64,000 bases of DNA from Candidatus Cloacimonadota bacterium (GCA_030613025.1 JAUWMT010000004.1:1-64000); one strand, 5' to 3'; shown: positions 6,808-15,614, numbered from the stretch's first letter. Program-made: numbers and translations. The notes: a model not told the origin generated them from the sequence alone.

Positions 6808-8121
6808 TTATTTCAAATAGATCATTTTATGAAATGCCGTTTCTACATTTTCAGAAACTATCTTGTAAAGATATACACCACCGGAAACTATCCTGCCATT
6901 CTCATCTTTCCCATCCCAGACTGCTTGAAGCGTTCCCAAACTGGGGTTTGGGAACGAGGTAATGATTTTGGTAAGTTGTCCCTTTATGTTGAAAATATTA
7001 ATCTCTGTGTTCTCTGCCTGCCACGGCGTAGCGCAGTGAAGCCGGGTGGTTAGATTGAAGTATATTGTGGTCGAGTTTGAGAATGGATTGGGATAATTGT
7101 AGGCAATTACACTTTCATAATGAGGAATATCCACAGCAATTCCGGGATAGTAAAATCCAGCATCTTGCGGATTGACACCGACCGTAAGTGTGTGAAGAAG
7201 CTCCTCGTTTTCAGAATAGATATATACTTTCCCATTATTGATCCAGTCAACAGAATCACCGAGATAGAGTATGCCGTTCTCATCGAAGTGAATGAAACTC
7301 CCGCCGCTTGCCCATAGGTCTGTTGAGGAGTGAATAATTGAAAGATCAATCGAATTATACGCCATGAACCCGAGTCCGAAACCATCACAAAGATAGGCAG
7401 TGCCGTTTGGATGGATAGCAATTTTAGTTGGAGAGCCGCCAATTTCCATGGTTGTGATCACTTCATGGGTTGTAGTATTTATTATGTAAATTTTTCCATA
7501 AACAGCAGGATTACCGTAGCCGTAATTTCCGGTACAGACCACATGCAATCTTCCCATTGCATCGACCGCACCAAACTGCGGATTGTTCCCGACAGGAATT
7601 TGGTCAAGTACAGAATCATTATTCACATCTATTACTGTTACGCTTCCTGTGGGCGAACCATAAGAGGAATTCATAACGAATAATTTATCATCAAATAAAA
7701 CCATCCCCTCTGGAATAGAACCAACAGAAAGCGAGTTTACAACGATTTTATTTATCAGATCGATCACATAAACAGTATTAGTAAAAAGACCGGATACATA
7801 CGCTTTATCACCGCCCGGATGAAGCGCCATCCAGTAAGGATTTGAGCCATTCGGACACTGAATGTGATCAAGTGTAGTTTCAGTTTCCAGATCGATGATC
7901 TGTATGTTGTGCACACCGGAATTTACAACGTATGCCATGCTGTTCTGTATGACAATTTGATTAGCATACTGCCCGAGCTGGAGTATGTGATTTTCTAAAA
8001 TTTCCGTGACCGTATCATAATGGGAGAGTGTTTCGTCATTGCTGTTCACAATATACACGTCATGACCATAAAGGGGTGAAAATAAGATGAGCAAGCTAAT
8101 AAGAAGCAATAATTTTTTCAT
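6808..8121 (-). CDS. BtuG-like beta-propeller with FlgD/type IX-like sorting tail
   Basis: The ORF track starts at 8214, but the ATG at 8121 has an AAAGGA ribosome site and begins a signal peptide (MKKLLLLISLLILF), so I use it (437 aa). Residues about 25-320 are YVTN/YncE-type propeller blades (YVVNSG, HPGGDKAYVSG, VPEGxx/NPQ turns). The C-terminus (about 345-437) is a FlgD/type IX-like sorting domain: NYPNPFSNSTTI, then VWDGKDENGR and SGGVYLYKI. It follows the TonB receptor by 10 nt. In Bacteroides, BtuG is a surface beta-propeller that captures cobalamin beside BtuB; by position and fold this is the likely counterpart, anchored by the sorting tail rather than as a lipoprotein. Two insertions in the sorting domain are encoded by repeat elements. 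Confidence 0.8.
   Translation of the reverse strand: MKKLLLLISLLILFSPLYGHDVYIVNSNDETLSHYDTVTEILENHILQLGQYANQIVIQNSMAYVVNSGVHNIQIIDLETETTLDHIQCPNGSNPYWMALHPGGDKAYVSGLFTNTVYVIDLINKIVVNSLSVGSIPEGMVLFDDKLFVMNSSYGSPTGSVTVIDVNNDSVLDQIPVGNNPQFGAVDAMGRLHVVCTGNYGYGNPAVYGKIYIINTTTHEVITTMEIGGSPTKIAIHPNGTAYLCDGFGLGFMAYNSIDLSIIHSSTDLWASGGSFIHFDENGILYLGDSVDWINNGKVYIYSENEELLHTLTVGVNPQDAGFYYPGIAVDIPHYESVIAYNYPNPFSNSTTIYFNLTTRLHCATPWQAENTEINIFNIKGQLTKIITSFPNPSLGTLQAVWDGKDENGRIVSGGVYLYKIVSENVETAFHKMIYLK
6931..6956. repeat. 26-bp palindrome inside the BtuG-like coding sequence
   Basis: CGTTCCCAAAC-TGGG-GTTTGGGAACG, perfect 11-bp arms. Read in frame it encodes most of the SFPNPSLGTLQ segment between two strands of the sorting domain. 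Same family as 6651-6722 and 21002-21090. Confidence 0.85.
7014..7050. repeat. GGCGTAGCG repeat inside the BtuG-like coding sequence
   Basis: The core GGCGTAGCGCAGTGAAG resembles GGCGTAGCGTAGCGAAG at about 13513-13530 in the intergenic region after nifU. In frame on the minus strand it encodes the unusual stretch TRLHCATPWQAE in the first loop of the sorting domain. Confidence 0.6.
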
Positions 8122-8131
8122 TGTGTCCTTT

Positions 8132-10261
8132 CTAAAGAAAATGCGTTGAGAATGATGCTTCGAAATTTCTTCCTGATGATGGAACATTTCTTGAAGTTTC
8201 ATATTGTACATCAAAGATATTATTTATCCGAAAAGTGATCGAAGTTTTGATTTTTTTGGCTATTGGAGATGTTAAATGCAAGCCCGCATCATAAGTGGTA
8301 TAACCATCAATTACAACTGTATTGCTGAAATTATCATATTGTTTTCCTACATTCAGCACCGATGCAAAGAGTTTAATATTCATAAATGAGTATGAAACCT
8401 TTCCCTGCACTTTATGGAGAGGTTTATTTGTAAGAAATTTATTATAATGGTCTGCCGAAGTGGTCTTGTTTATCGGATAATTCTTTGAGCCAGACAGTTC
8501 AATTTCGAGATCGCTGATTATGTGCCAGTTCAATGATCCTGAAAAGCCGTAAAGTTCTGCATCAGCAAGATTTTCGGGTTTCCATACTCCAAGCGCGCTT
8601 CTGTACCAATATATTAGATTTTCAATTCGATTAAAATATGCTTCCCCGGTAAGAGCGAATGTGCCAATTTTCCATTTTAGATTGCTGCTTATCCCATAAG
8701 AACGTTCGGGGTCAAGGTCCGGGTTTCCCTGCACGCGTGAGTCACCTTTCCAAAAGAGAGAACTGAATTCCGGCATCGCAAAAGAGTTTCCTCCTGAAAT
8801 GCTCATCTGAATAGTATCAGATTTTGCTGGATATTCAAGAGTAAGATGAGATGACAGATAGACATCCTCGTCGATAAAATAGTCAGCACGAAGAGAAGGA
8901 ATGAGCGAAAATTCCTGCTGTCCAAAAGAAAACGGAATTAAGGTTTCGTTTGATAAATAAAGGAAAGTTCTATTTTTTTGAGAGATCGAATTTTCCGGGT
9001 GTAGATGGTCGTCATATTTGTAGTTTTCATATCGCAAGCCACAATTAGAGATAGAAGACAGACTAGAACCTTTTGTATTCAGTTTTGCCCGCGCTTCGAA
9101 GACAGAAGTTGTATTTGCAGAATTATAGGCATAAAAGGGGTTTTCGGTATTATTTTCATAATTACTTTTATTAAATTGATAAAAGAGAGAACTTGTGAAA
9201 TCGTTTTTCCCAAACGGAATGTGCAATTCATTTTTTATATGTACTCTATCTGCTCTTGCCCGTGCATTTTCAAACCACATATAGTCGGTGGATTGCCCGG
9301 GAATGCCCTTCTCGGCTTTATAATAAAGAAATGAAAATTCAGAATATGTGTTCTTTTTCAGGGTTATTCGAGATTGTAGAGATAAAGAACCCTCCGTAAT
9401 GTCATTATTCGAACGTGTGACCGTTTTTTCTTCCTGTTCATTATAATAACTGAAATTGTTTTTTGCTGAACGTCCATAAATATTGCATAAAAAAGAAGAA
9501 TTTCCCAAAGCAAAATTATTTTGATAATTTAGTGAATAATTTGCCCAACTTCCGGAATGAAAGGTGAGTTCATGATTCTGAAGATGTGAGCGAGAATTTT
9601 TCAGTACTATGTTCACAATGCCGCCAATTGCCGATTCTCCAGATGTGCTACCTGCATTATGGGAGATAACTTCCACATGATCGATCATGTTTATGGGAAT
9701 TGAAGCAACTGTGTTTCCCGTTGAATTGTCAGCTTTCATGCCGTCTATAAGATAGACACAATGACGTGGTTCATAAGCATAAAGCTGAAGTTGTTTCTCG
9801 CCGGTTGCACTTTCTTTTAGAAGTAAACCCGGATGAGATGAAACAAATTCCTGTGTGTAATTTTGTCCGAGATTATCTGGAGTTAGTATTTCAACATCTG
9901 CAGAGGATAATTTGAGCGAGGTTCCTTCTTCTGTGATTACTTTCAGTCCCTGTATTCTGATGGGGTCAATTGAAAGAAAAATAGTATTGTCTTTTGGGTC
10001 GTTAACAGTAAATTCTTTTGTCTCATAACCTTGCGATGATATAATTATTCTGCATGGAATTTCGCTGCTGCGCAACAAGAACCAGCCATTATTATCTGAA
10101 AGTGTAATATGATCGGCATGAGCAGTTTTTACTAACGCATACTGTATCGGCTTGCCTGTTTTTCCGCTGAGGACGCGCCCCTGAATATCTGCCAAAACAA
10201 GCGCAGGTAGTATGAAAAGAATAGAAATGATAATAAATAATTTACTCATCTTGGCTTTCAT
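8132..10261 (-). CDS. btuB: TonB-dependent outer-membrane receptor, BtuB-like
   Basis: 709 aa. A signal peptide (about 1-24) is followed by a carboxypeptidase-regulatory-like domain (about 25-105), a TonB plug (about 115-230, with IDHVEVISHNAGST and GGIVNIV) and a 22-strand-type barrel to the C-terminus. TonB receptors pull bound ligands across the outer membrane. Cobalamin is inferred because the gene sits between btuD and a BtuG-like propeller, near a cobalamin riboswitch and btuFC. It overlaps btuD by 20 nt if MKAK is the start, or 8 nt if MSKL (10249) is; neither has a strong ribosome site. Confidence 0.85.
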   Translation of the reverse strand: MKAKMSKLFIIISILFILPALVLADIQGRVLSGKTGKPIQYALVKTAHADHITLSDNNGWFLLRSSEIPCRIIISSQGYETKEFTVNDPKDNTIFLSIDPIRIQGLKVITEEGTSLKLSSADVEILTPDNLGQNYTQEFVSSHPGLLLKESATGEKQLQLYAYEPRHCVYLIDGMKADNSTGNTVASIPINMIDHVEVISHNAGSTSGESAIGGIVNIVLKNSRSHLQNHELTFHSGSWANYSLNYQNNFALGNSSFLCNIYGRSAKNNFSYYNEQEEKTVTRSNNDITEGSLSLQSRITLKKNTYSEFSFLYYKAEKGIPGQSTDYMWFENARARADRVHIKNELHIPFGKNDFTSSLFYQFNKSNYENNTENPFYAYNSANTTSVFEARAKLNTKGSSLSSISNCGLRYENYKYDDHLHPENSISQKNRTFLYLSNETLIPFSFGQQEFSLIPSLRADYFIDEDVYLSSHLTLEYPAKSDTIQMSISGGNSFAMPEFSSLFWKGDSRVQGNPDLDPERSYGISSNLKWKIGTFALTGEAYFNRIENLIYWYRSALGVWKPENLADAELYGFSGSLNWHIISDLEIELSGSKNYPINKTTSADHYNKFLTNKPLHKVQGKVSYSFMNIKLFASVLNVGKQYDNFSNTVVIDGYTTYDAGLHLTSPIAKKIKTSITFRINNIFDVQYETSRNVPSSGRNFEASFSTHFL

Positions 10262-11036
10262 TTTGAGTATAATTATAAAGTATGTTTGGTTTTCCCGTGA
10301 AAGGATTTGCAGTTACCTCGATTGGAATCCTGAAGACCTTTCTAAGTTCTTCCTTTTTCAAAACTTTCTCGGTTTCGCCGAAAGCAACAATGCGTCCTTC
10401 ATCCATGATTAGGATCTTATTACAAAATTCTGCTGCGAGATTTATATTATGAGAAACTGCGAGAATGGTTTTGTTCTGTTCCTTATTTTGTTTTTGTAAG
10501 AGTGAGAAAATTCCTATCTGATGATGAATATCGAGATGTGATGCCGGCTCGTCAAAAAGAAGAATATCCGTATCCTGATTAAGCGCCCTGGCGATCATGA
10601 CAAGTTGGAATTCACCGCCGCTCAGTTCACTTAGATACCGATCGGAAAGATGATCAATATTGAGTTCTTTAAGAATGTTATCGGTTTCTACGATTTGATC
10701 CCGTGAATAATTCTGCCAGAATCCAAGATAGGGGTATTTTCCCATGAGCACAACATCGCGAACTGTAAAATCAAATTCAAAATGGGGCTGTTGCACCACG
10801 ACGGAAACCTGACGTGCTCGTTCAATGTCCGAGTGATCAGAAAGCGGGATATTATGGAAGTAAACATCTCCCTGATAGTCTTTTATGTAATTGCACAAGC
10901 ACTTGATCAGCGTTGATTTCCCTGCGCCGTTAGGTCCGATCAATCCAACAAAATCAGTACTGTTTACAGTAAATGAAATATCATTTAGAACAGGTTTTTC
11001 GGAGTAAGAATATTTTAAGTTTGAAATTCTTAACAT
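10242..11036 (-). CDS. btuD: Cobalamin/siderophore ABC transporter ATP-binding protein
   Basis: 264 aa FecE/BtuD-type ATPase. Walker A is GPNGAGKST (about residue 36), then Q-loop VVVQQPHFEF, signature LSGGEFQLV (about 137), Walker B ILLFDEPASHLD and the switch histidine in AVSHN. It should energise import with the BtuC-like permease encoded at 13809-14756. That permease lies on the same strand but across the inserted plus-strand rrf2-nifS-nifU cassette, so btuD cannot be on the btuFC transcript unless it reads about 2.8 kb through. It is divergent from rrf2, and their promoters share about 60 bp. Confidence 0.9.
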   Translation of the reverse strand: MLRISNLKYSYSEKPVLNDISFTVNSTDFVGLIGPNGAGKSTLIKCLCNYIKDYQGDVYFHNIPLSDHSDIERARQVSVVVQQPHFEFDFTVRDVVLMGKYPYLGFWQNYSRDQIVETDNILKELNIDHLSDRYLSELSGGEFQLVMIARALNQDTDILLFDEPASHLDIHHQIGIFSLLQKQNKEQNKTILAVSHNINLAAEFCNKILIMDEGRIVAFGETEKVLKKEELRKVFRIPIEVTANPFTGKPNILYNYTQNESQDE

Positions 11037-13808: not shown

Positions 13809-14756
13809 TTATTTTCTTTTTAACAGATAAACAAAAAATGGCGCACCGAAAAGTGCTGTCACCACTCCGACAGGAATTTCAATAACCATTACAGATCGGG
13901 CAATTGTATCGCACAGCACGAGAAAGCTCGCTCCAAGTAAGGCGGAAAGCGGAAGCAAATATCGATTGTCGGATCCGATAAGGAGTCGGGTTATATGAGG
14001 AATGATAAGTCCTACAAATCCTATAATTCCTACAAAAGATACAACAATTCCGACCAGAAATGAGGTTAGAATAAATAGTAATTTCCTCGTTTTATAAACA
14101 TTTACTCCAAGCGTTTCTGCAGAATAATCTCCAACTGAAAGAATATTCAGTTTTACTGAGAAGAAATAGAGAATGATGACTCCAAGAATTGAGAGACCTG
14201 CGATAGTCCAGAGTAAAAATGATGTAGATTGTGAAAAGATAAATCCAAGATTTCCCATGAGGATTGAGAATATTTGAGCGAGGTCTTTATGGAACACGCT
14301 CATCAGGAAAGCAATGATAGCTGAGAAGAACATATTCACCACAACACCTGCAAGAATGAGTTTGGTTTTATCGATGTGGCGTTGTTTTTGGGCGATCTGC
14401 CAAACAAGTATCATTGTAAGAAGCGCACCGAGAAATCCGAAAAGCGGCATCAAAAAAATCTTGTTAAGAAGGAGTCCGATAATACTTCCCAACGCTGCAC
14501 CGGAAGAAATTCCCAGAAGATATGGTTCTGCAAGAGGATTGTGCAGCATTCCCTGAAGCACTCCACCACTCGATGCAAGCACAAGACCAGCAACGATACC
14601 AAGAACAATTCGTGGTATTCGTATGTTGAAAAGGATATTTCTGCTGCTTTCCGTAAGTGAAAAAAGGTTGATGGAACTGCTGCCAATCTGTAATGAAATG
14701 AACACGACAATGATCAGCGCGATAAAGCCAATTAGAATAGCTAATTTCTTATTCAT
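13809..14756 (-). CDS. btuC: FecCD-family ABC permease (B12-type)
   Basis: 315 aa inner-membrane permease with about ten hydrophobic segments. Family signatures are HNPLAEPYLLGISSGAALG and the GFVGLIIPHITR coupling region. It overlaps the btuF stop by 8 nt, so the two are translated together under the cobalamin riboswitch. A matching ATPase is missing immediately downstream; the btuD-like ATPase is 2.8 kb further on the same strand beyond the inserted rrf2-nifS-nifU genes. Confidence 0.93.
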   Translation of the reverse strand: MNKKLAILIGFIALIIVVFISLQIGSSSINLFSLTESSRNILFNIRIPRIVLGIVAGLVLASSGGVLQGMLHNPLAEPYLLGISSGAALGSIIGLLLNKIFLMPLFGFLGALLTMILVWQIAQKQRHIDKTKLILAGVVVNMFFSAIIAFLMSVFHKDLAQIFSILMGNLGFIFSQSTSFLLWTIAGLSILGVIILYFFSVKLNILSVGDYSAETLGVNVYKTRKLLFILTSFLVGIVVSFVGIIGFVGLIIPHITRLLIGSDNRYLLPLSALLGASFLVLCDTIARSVMVIEIPVGVVTALFGAPFFVYLLKRK

Positions 14757-15582
14757 GATATTGAGCAGCTATATGTGATAATTTTTGTATTCCTTCTACA
14801 ACCCGCGGACCGGATCGAAGAATTAAATCAGGATCGATATTTTTAGTAGTAAAGACCTTATCGTTTTTCACGGCAGTAATAGAATCCCATCCCAATCGCT
14901 CTTTGATGTCATTCTTATCTACACCCGGATACGTGATCAGGATTATATCGGGATCGAGCTCAACCACTTTTTCTGAGGAAACGGCGCAGTACTCGCGTGG
15001 TAGTTCGGGAAAGATATTTATCAAACCTGCTTCTTGAAGAACATCACCCACAAAGGAATCAGAAGAAGCGGTCATAAGCGGTTTGTTGTAGATCTCGATG
15101 TAAATCGTCGGGCTTTTTGTAGATTTTGGAGTAGAGACGATAGCTTGTTGCATGTATCGTATCAGTGAATCTGCATTTTCTTTTCTATTAAGAAGTTCTC
15201 CAAGTTCAAAGATTGTTTCATAAAGTGCTTGAATTGATGAGGGAAAAAATTGGTGGACGGGGATATTGAGATTTTGCAATTTCTGTTTGATCATTTCCTG
15301 CTCCATGCCCGTGAGAAGGACCGCATCAGGTTCAAGAGCAACGATCTTTTCTATATTTGGAGCGCTGAAACTGCCGACCATGTTTTTTTCATAAAGTGCG
15401 TTTGGATAGTTACATTCATGTGTGATGCCGATGATATGCTCTTCTGCTCCAAGCGCACAGACTATTTCCGCAAGCTCGGGAGAGAGCACTGCGATTCTTG
15501 GATGAGGAGCATCATCTTTTTCAAGAGGCATACTGCAGCTAATGATCAGGATCAGCACAAACAGGGGGATACATTTTTTCAT
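14749..15582 (-). CDS. btuF: Cobalamin-binding periplasmic lipoprotein
   Basis: The track start at 15696 would run through the riboswitch and its terminator. The internal ATG at 15582 begins a lipoprotein signal (MKKCIPLFVLILIISC) and is the sensible start (277 aa). The family pattern is clear: RIAVLSPELAEIVCALGAE, VDKNDIKERLG and a final helix typical of BtuF/FepB-type binding proteins. It delivers ligand to BtuCD. The start codon sits two bases after the terminator T-tract and has no ordinary ribosome site apart from GGG inside the terminator stem. Confidence 0.9.
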   Translation of the reverse strand: MKKCIPLFVLILIISCSMPLEKDDAPHPRIAVLSPELAEIVCALGAEEHIIGITHECNYPNALYEKNMVGSFSAPNIEKIVALEPDAVLLTGMEQEMIKQKLQNLNIPVHQFFPSSIQALYETIFELGELLNRKENADSLIRYMQQAIVSTPKSTKSPTIYIEIYNKPLMTASSDSFVGDVLQEAGLINIFPELPREYCAVSSEKVVELDPDIILITYPGVDKNDIKERLGWDSITAVKNDKVFTTKNIDPDLILRSGPRVVEGIQKLSHIAAQYHE

Positions 15583-15583
15583 T

Positions 15584-15614
15584 AAAAAAACCCAATCTCG
15601 GTGAAAATTGGGTT
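15584..15614 (-). terminator. Intrinsic terminator of the cobalamin riboswitch
   Basis: On the minus strand AACCCAAT (15614-15607), a 10-nt loop, ATTGGGTT, then seven Ts, ending two bases before the btuF ATG. This is the expected off-state structure of a transcriptional B12 switch. Confidence 0.8.

Follow-up and report, generated by a model that had tools for sequence, protein, structure and literature searches.

How might a bacterium outside the Bacteroidetes fix a vitamin B12 capture protein on its surface? BtuG has been described as a surface lipoprotein (PMC6143338, PMC10404256) and reported as exclusive to Bacteroidetes (PMC6143338). The question is raised by a stretch of 64,000 nucleotides from a Candidatus Cloacimonadota bacterium (hereafter the window), in which a preliminary description had placed a BtuG-like propeller with a type IX-like tail beside a TonB-dependent receptor. 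Both genes are indeed there, on the minus strand (Table 1). It is quite probable that the window protein is a homologue of BtuG that captures cobamides, is mounted on the surface by the type IX secretion system (T9SS), and feeds the adjacent BtuB-like transporter. Within this reading, we infer cobamide binding, export with surface attachment, and docking on BtuB.

Table 1. Features of the B12 locus of the window and of the propeller protein that it encodes
Feature	Position	Strand	Remarks
BtuG-like propeller gene with T9SS tail	6808..8121	-	437 aa, start ATG 8121
Sec signal peptide, no lipobox cysteine	8062..8121	-	translation MKKLLLLISLLILFSPLYGH
Seven-bladed YVTN-type propeller, residues 21-325	7147..8061	-	AlphaFold, Foldseek, hhalign
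Tyr200, aligned with BtuG2 Tyr239 (cobalamin contact)	7522..7524	-	aromatic in 90/90 homologues
Trp293, aligned with BtuG2 Tyr335	7243..7245	-	aromatic in 90/90 homologues
C-terminal type A T9SS sorting domain (YPNPF..., FlgD_ig / Por_Secre_tail), residues ~339-437	6808..7107	-	
BtuB-like TonB-dependent receptor	8132..10261	-	709 aa, domain matches and context
BtuD-like ABC ATPase	10242..11036	-	profile matches
BtuC permease (FecCD)	13809..14756	-	PF01032 E 9e-85; best NCBIfam model BtuC
BtuF-like periplasmic binding protein	14749..15582	-	PF01497 E 2e-32; start ATG 15582
Terminator hairpin AACCCAAT...ATTGGGTTTTTTT	15584..15613	-	sequence read, between riboswitch and btuF start
Cobalamin riboswitch RF00174	15651..15876	-	93.2 bits

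The locus is larger than the pair of genes seen at first: the preliminary description recognized the receptor and the propeller, and missed the cobalamin riboswitch, btuD, btuC, and btuF. The genes btuF and btuC lie downstream of the riboswitch on the minus strand, and an rrf2-nifS-nifU cluster in the opposite orientation stands between them and btuD-btuB-propeller. The propeller ORF had been listed as 6808-8214, from a TTG; its true start is the ATG at 8121, which has AAAGGA upstream and lies 10 nt past the stop codon of btuB. The next gene after the propeller is folC. The receptor contains TonB_dep_Rec_b-barrel (E 7e-19), Plug (E 1.4e-5), and CarbopepD_reg_2 domains, and its best NCBIfam model is TIGR01779, TonB-B12 (E 5e-23). 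Because it reaches 81 bits against an equivalog cut-off of 599.7, it is named only BtuB-like, by context. For the BtuD-like ATPase, the top scores go to haem/FecE models. Control by premature termination usually relies on an intrinsic terminator hairpin, and the hairpin at 15584..15613 is, to judge from its sequence, the likely expression platform of the btuF riboswitch. Since this riboswitch stands at btuF and the opposite-strand cluster intervenes, its direct control of the window propeller is only putative.

The window has a single riboswitch, at btuF. Between 10242 and 15696, btuF-btuC and btuD-btuB-propeller are co-stranded and split by rrf2-nifS-nifU, and the same split orientation is found in all 35 related loci that hold btuD, btuB, propeller, nifS, and rrf2 (31 with btuC visible). 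The two blocks could possibly be one non-contiguous operon whose transcript crosses nifSU in antisense; in the window, terminator-like sites near 13856 and 13656 speak against this.

The kinship of the propeller with BtuG is seen in fold and in sequence. The AlphaFold model, computed from an input alignment of 90 homologues, has a pLDDT of 91, mostly 90-98 in the propeller, with the signal peptide modelled as a helix (residues 2-13). YVTN repeats are matched in the propeller domain (E 1e-16). When the model is compared with the PDB using Foldseek, every match from rank 2 to rank 17 is a BtuG structure (E 4e-20 to 2e-16), with a target TM of 0.76-0.85 to isolated BtuG propellers and an rmsd of about 2.7-3.8; the next distinct match is the beta subunit of hydrazine synthase (5c2v, TM 0.61). 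The archaeal YVTN protein 1l0q takes Foldseek rank 1 and precedes BtuG by E-value in both sequence and Foldseek searches. With an rmsd of 19, this match is an effect of the repeats. Identity to BtuG is 20-24%. Nevertheless, phmmer matches BtuG2 and BtuG3 along the full extent of the propeller (E 5e-12 to 2e-10; residues 59-349 when counted from the TTG), and hhalign of the homologue profile against a BtuG2/3 profile built from named Bacteroidales aligns 273 columns at 99.1% (E 7e-19). Only two proteins of B. faecis are matched by the family profile: the product of the BtuG locus and a 665-aa protein of the size of BtuG1. With BtuG1/2/3 of Bacteroides thetaiotaomicron (8BMX, 8BMY, 8OKV, 8BLW, 8P97; 3DSM), the window propeller has in common the seven-bladed fold, and its family also has the btuB-adjacent gene, the B12-riboswitch regulon, and the full-length profile match. 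Two other approaches were discarded. In a tree with other YVTN propellers, these are not excluded from the neighbourhood of the window clade, and rooting by them is uninformative because of long branches. Net negative charge is no hallmark of BtuG, other YVTN propellers being just as acidic.

Five aromatic residues of BtuG2 line or contact the bound cobalamin, Trp194, Tyr239, Trp272, Tyr316, and Tyr335, the last of which contacts the upper ligand of AdoCbl (PMC10404256). BtuG2 also makes 13 hydrogen bonds; our comparison covers the five named aromatics, and BtuG2 numbering is the alignment position plus 61. At the positions of Trp194, Tyr239, Tyr316, and Tyr335, the aligned BtuG sequences have an invariant or nearly invariant Trp/Tyr; the position of Trp272 varies, several of the sequences having Trp there. 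Among the 127 well-filled loop columns of the window family, two are at least 90% aromatic; both are 100% aromatic, and they are the positions of Tyr239 and Tyr335 (chance about 0.001). The second of the motifs, D-x-x-[DN]-[YFW], also has its aromatic in 47/47 lipoprotein relatives. Trp194, Trp272, and probably Tyr316 of BtuG2 are not conserved as aromatics in the window family. Hence the pocket is not the same as that of BtuG2; as read from the alignments, it is related but not identical.

The propeller is present in 98 of 118 related genomes, many of which are fragmented assemblies, and in 67 of the 71 of good quality; a chance pairing of genes is thus excluded. Apart from weak repeat matches, nearly all carriers have one full-length copy. 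A BtuB-like receptor also occurs in 93 of these 98 genomes, and in 55, the window included, the propeller directly follows it. In 37 of the 98, mostly members of a family (f3) in which btuB is usually elsewhere, the propeller gene has a cobalamin riboswitch of its own directly upstream, for 0.01 expected. This independent riboswitch is the strongest functional evidence, since even a propeller gene that stands alone is thereby connected with B12. One genus (g8; G018, G020, G027, and G042) keeps the propeller far from BtuB, and the search of these near-complete genomes gave no cobalamin riboswitch; it seems that this regulation was lost there, or that the riboswitch is too divergent.

These results bear out most of what the preliminary description had put forward. 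Structure prediction places the propeller with BtuG, and structure, profile-profile comparison, gene context, and riboswitches agree on this identity. The expected co-occurrence with BtuB is clear (Fisher p 7e-9). It had also named two findings that would speak against it. One was a propeller lacking a cobalamin-binding face, and both alignable contact aromatics are kept in all 90 homologues. The other was pairing with non-B12 receptors, and a non-BtuB TonB receptor beside the propeller was found at none of the loci, although the BtuB-like profile was built from the same loci and is not fully independent.

In the way it would be held at the surface, the protein differs from BtuG1/2/3. The window propeller has neither lipobox nor lipoprotein export signal, and ends instead in a T9SS tail. 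It was rejected as a lipoprotein because no Cys follows the signal peptide. A convincing lipobox is absent from all 94 homologues whose N-termini could be read; the lone match to the lipobox pattern is inside a signal peptide for which AHA is the more likely end. The FlgD/type IX-like sorting domain claimed for the C-terminus is recovered by FlgD_ig in the window protein (E 4e-8, passing the cut-off), which scores below the cut-offs of Por_Secre_tail (E 6e-4) and TIGR04183. TIGR04183 is matched by 88 of the 90 homologues (best 2.4e-15) and Por_Secre_tail by 85, and among sorting domains of solved structure the tail profile matches 8glj (E 1e-7) and PorU 6za2 (E 2e-6). The genome of the window codes for SprA (570 bits), PorV (258 bits), and PorU (532 bits), each scoring higher than its curated cut-off. 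Signal peptide and Ig-like C-terminal sorting domain are shared with T9SS type A cargo (TIGR04183 / PF18962; Porphyromonas C-terminal domains of the RgpB and PorU type), but what is carried here is a propeller associated with a nutrient transporter of the TonB type. This 2.8-Mb genome has a very large type IX secretome, FlgD/T9SS-type tails being present at the ends of more than 100 frames.

In place of the lipobox there would then be a Sec signal peptide that is cleaved off, and the T9SS, with SprA as translocon, PorV as shuttle, and PorU as sortase, would take the propeller through the outer membrane, cut away its tail, and fix it on the outside of the cell. There the protein would capture cobamides and pass them to the BtuB-like TonB transporter encoded next to it, from which BtuF and BtuCD would move them inward. 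The name "BtuG lipoprotein" is unsuitable, as a lipobox was looked for and not found; in its way of working the protein most likely resembles BtuG, which has a very high affinity for cobalamin and caps BtuB.

Not all T9SS cargoes stay attached; some are released. A BtuG-type propeller that binds B12 could therefore, by analogy with haemophores, be a "cobalophore", released or loosely bound to the surface and not a lid of BtuB. The f3 genes, usually away from btuB and yet with a cobalamin riboswitch of their own, fit this picture, and at least in that family the propeller might be a released or shuttling B12 scavenger made under B12 starvation. We regard this last proposal as doubtful. For the family at large, the cobalophore is rather unlikely, since the propeller comes right after btuB in the 55 genomes, as does the lid-forming BtuG, and since the sortase is present that attaches type A cargo in Porphyromonas, PorU.

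The other two readings abandon B12 capture altogether. It is very unlikely that the propeller is a generic T9SS-exported YVTN surface protein that is a partner in the btuB operon and binds no cobamide: the single copy per genome throughout the class, the riboswitch owned by the gene where it is away from btuB, and structure matches that centre on BtuG, with loop aromatics at BtuG contact positions, weigh more than the commonness of YVTN propellers, the abundance of T9SS-type tails in the genome, and the first place of 1l0q by E-value. The distance of the receptor from the BtuB equivalog cut-off and the haem/FecE resemblance of the ATPase would suit the uptake of a related ligand (haem, another tetrapyrrole, or an iron complex) through a receptor that is no true BtuB. 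Yet the best NCBIfam models of receptor and permease are the B12 ones, and cobalamin riboswitches are found at btuF of the window, at the propellers of 37 genomes, and at all Bacteroidota loci tested (see following), which leaves this reading hardly credible.

The T9SS-tailed propeller is not confined to the class of the window. The profile of window-class propellers, run on 346 Bacteroidota genomes with a threshold of E below 1e-20, matches 79 of them, and a BtuB-like gene is adjacent in nearly all of the 60 loci read. The Bacteroidota propellers show a clean split between tailless lipoproteins, mostly of 340-385 aa, and T9SS-tailed, lipobox-free proteins of 436-553 aa; the cobalamin riboswitch is present in 20/20 loci tested, tailed and lipoprotein alike. 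The second way of fixing the propeller, which the preliminary description proposed for an unrelated phylum, would thus not be peculiar to that phylum, as the T9SS-tailed form occurs in Bacteroidota too. Across the BtuG-like family, lipid anchor and T9SS tail are mutually exclusive alternatives. Bacteroides species have no T9SS (PMC11285876), so those of the gut are confined to the lipid anchor.

The tailed propellers of Bacteroidota (L248, L250, L256, L300, and L302-L307) resemble that of the window in BtuB-like gene, cobalamin riboswitch, and lack of lipobox. Except for L248, they cluster on the tree with lipoprotein BtuGs, unlike the window clade. In the 93-row tree, the window class forms one clade (98/88), with L248 as its sister (100/100), perhaps a deep branch or a transfer. 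L248, from genome G459, is T9SS-tailed, far closer to the window class (216 bits) than other Bacteroidota propellers, and has btuF/btuD/btuC-like genes downstream. The best tree requires five or more changes of anchor, and the starred branches force four changes for the Bacteroidota tailed group; the careful tree omits the tail-bearing paralogues found beside lipoprotein BtuGs (L257-L261, L267). Uniting the tailed proteins in a single clade worsens the fit by 28 log units, and the AU test does not reject the resulting tree (p 0.069). Repeated switching of the anchor is likely, though not proven. In tandem at L257, L258, L259, L261, and L267, a lipoprotein BtuG-like propeller is followed by a divergent T9SS-tailed one, giving two differently anchored propellers in one B12 locus.

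Nearly all genomes of a second class have a BtuG-type propeller, and tailed forms exist in Bacteroidota; this implies a capture device older or more mobile than thought, with a surface anchor that is a replaceable module. It becomes testable whether BtuG is needed as a lid of BtuB or merely requires an extracellular position. For anaerobes that have been little cultured, the locus is a concrete system of B12 scavenging, and it connects T9SS export with the TonB-dependent uptake of a vitamin; the pairing of a T9SS cargo with a TonB transporter for B12 is not described in the papers searched. Nor did the literature searched hold a prior report of BtuG with type IX secretion or Flavobacteri, or of a cobalamin riboswitch with a propeller.

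As for the use of B12 in the genome of the window, methylmalonyl-CoA mutase, a candidate reason for needing it, was not found. Three proteins have a B12-binding domain, one of them MetH-sized (1228-aa frame). The sole GATase_3 match is a 233-aa frame, too small for CbiA or CbiP.

At riboswitch loci of Bacteroides, the surface proteins BtuH and BtuJ (DUF4465) also bind B12 in an accessory role (PMC8941943, PMC13398666), and in this they would resemble the window propeller. Their folds are different, and they are lipoproteins. Some Bacteroidota lipoprotein propellers of 656-694 aa (L281:6646-8616, L284:5949-8033, L287:5237-7231) are extended at the C-terminus, much as BtuG1 is by its BtuH domain.
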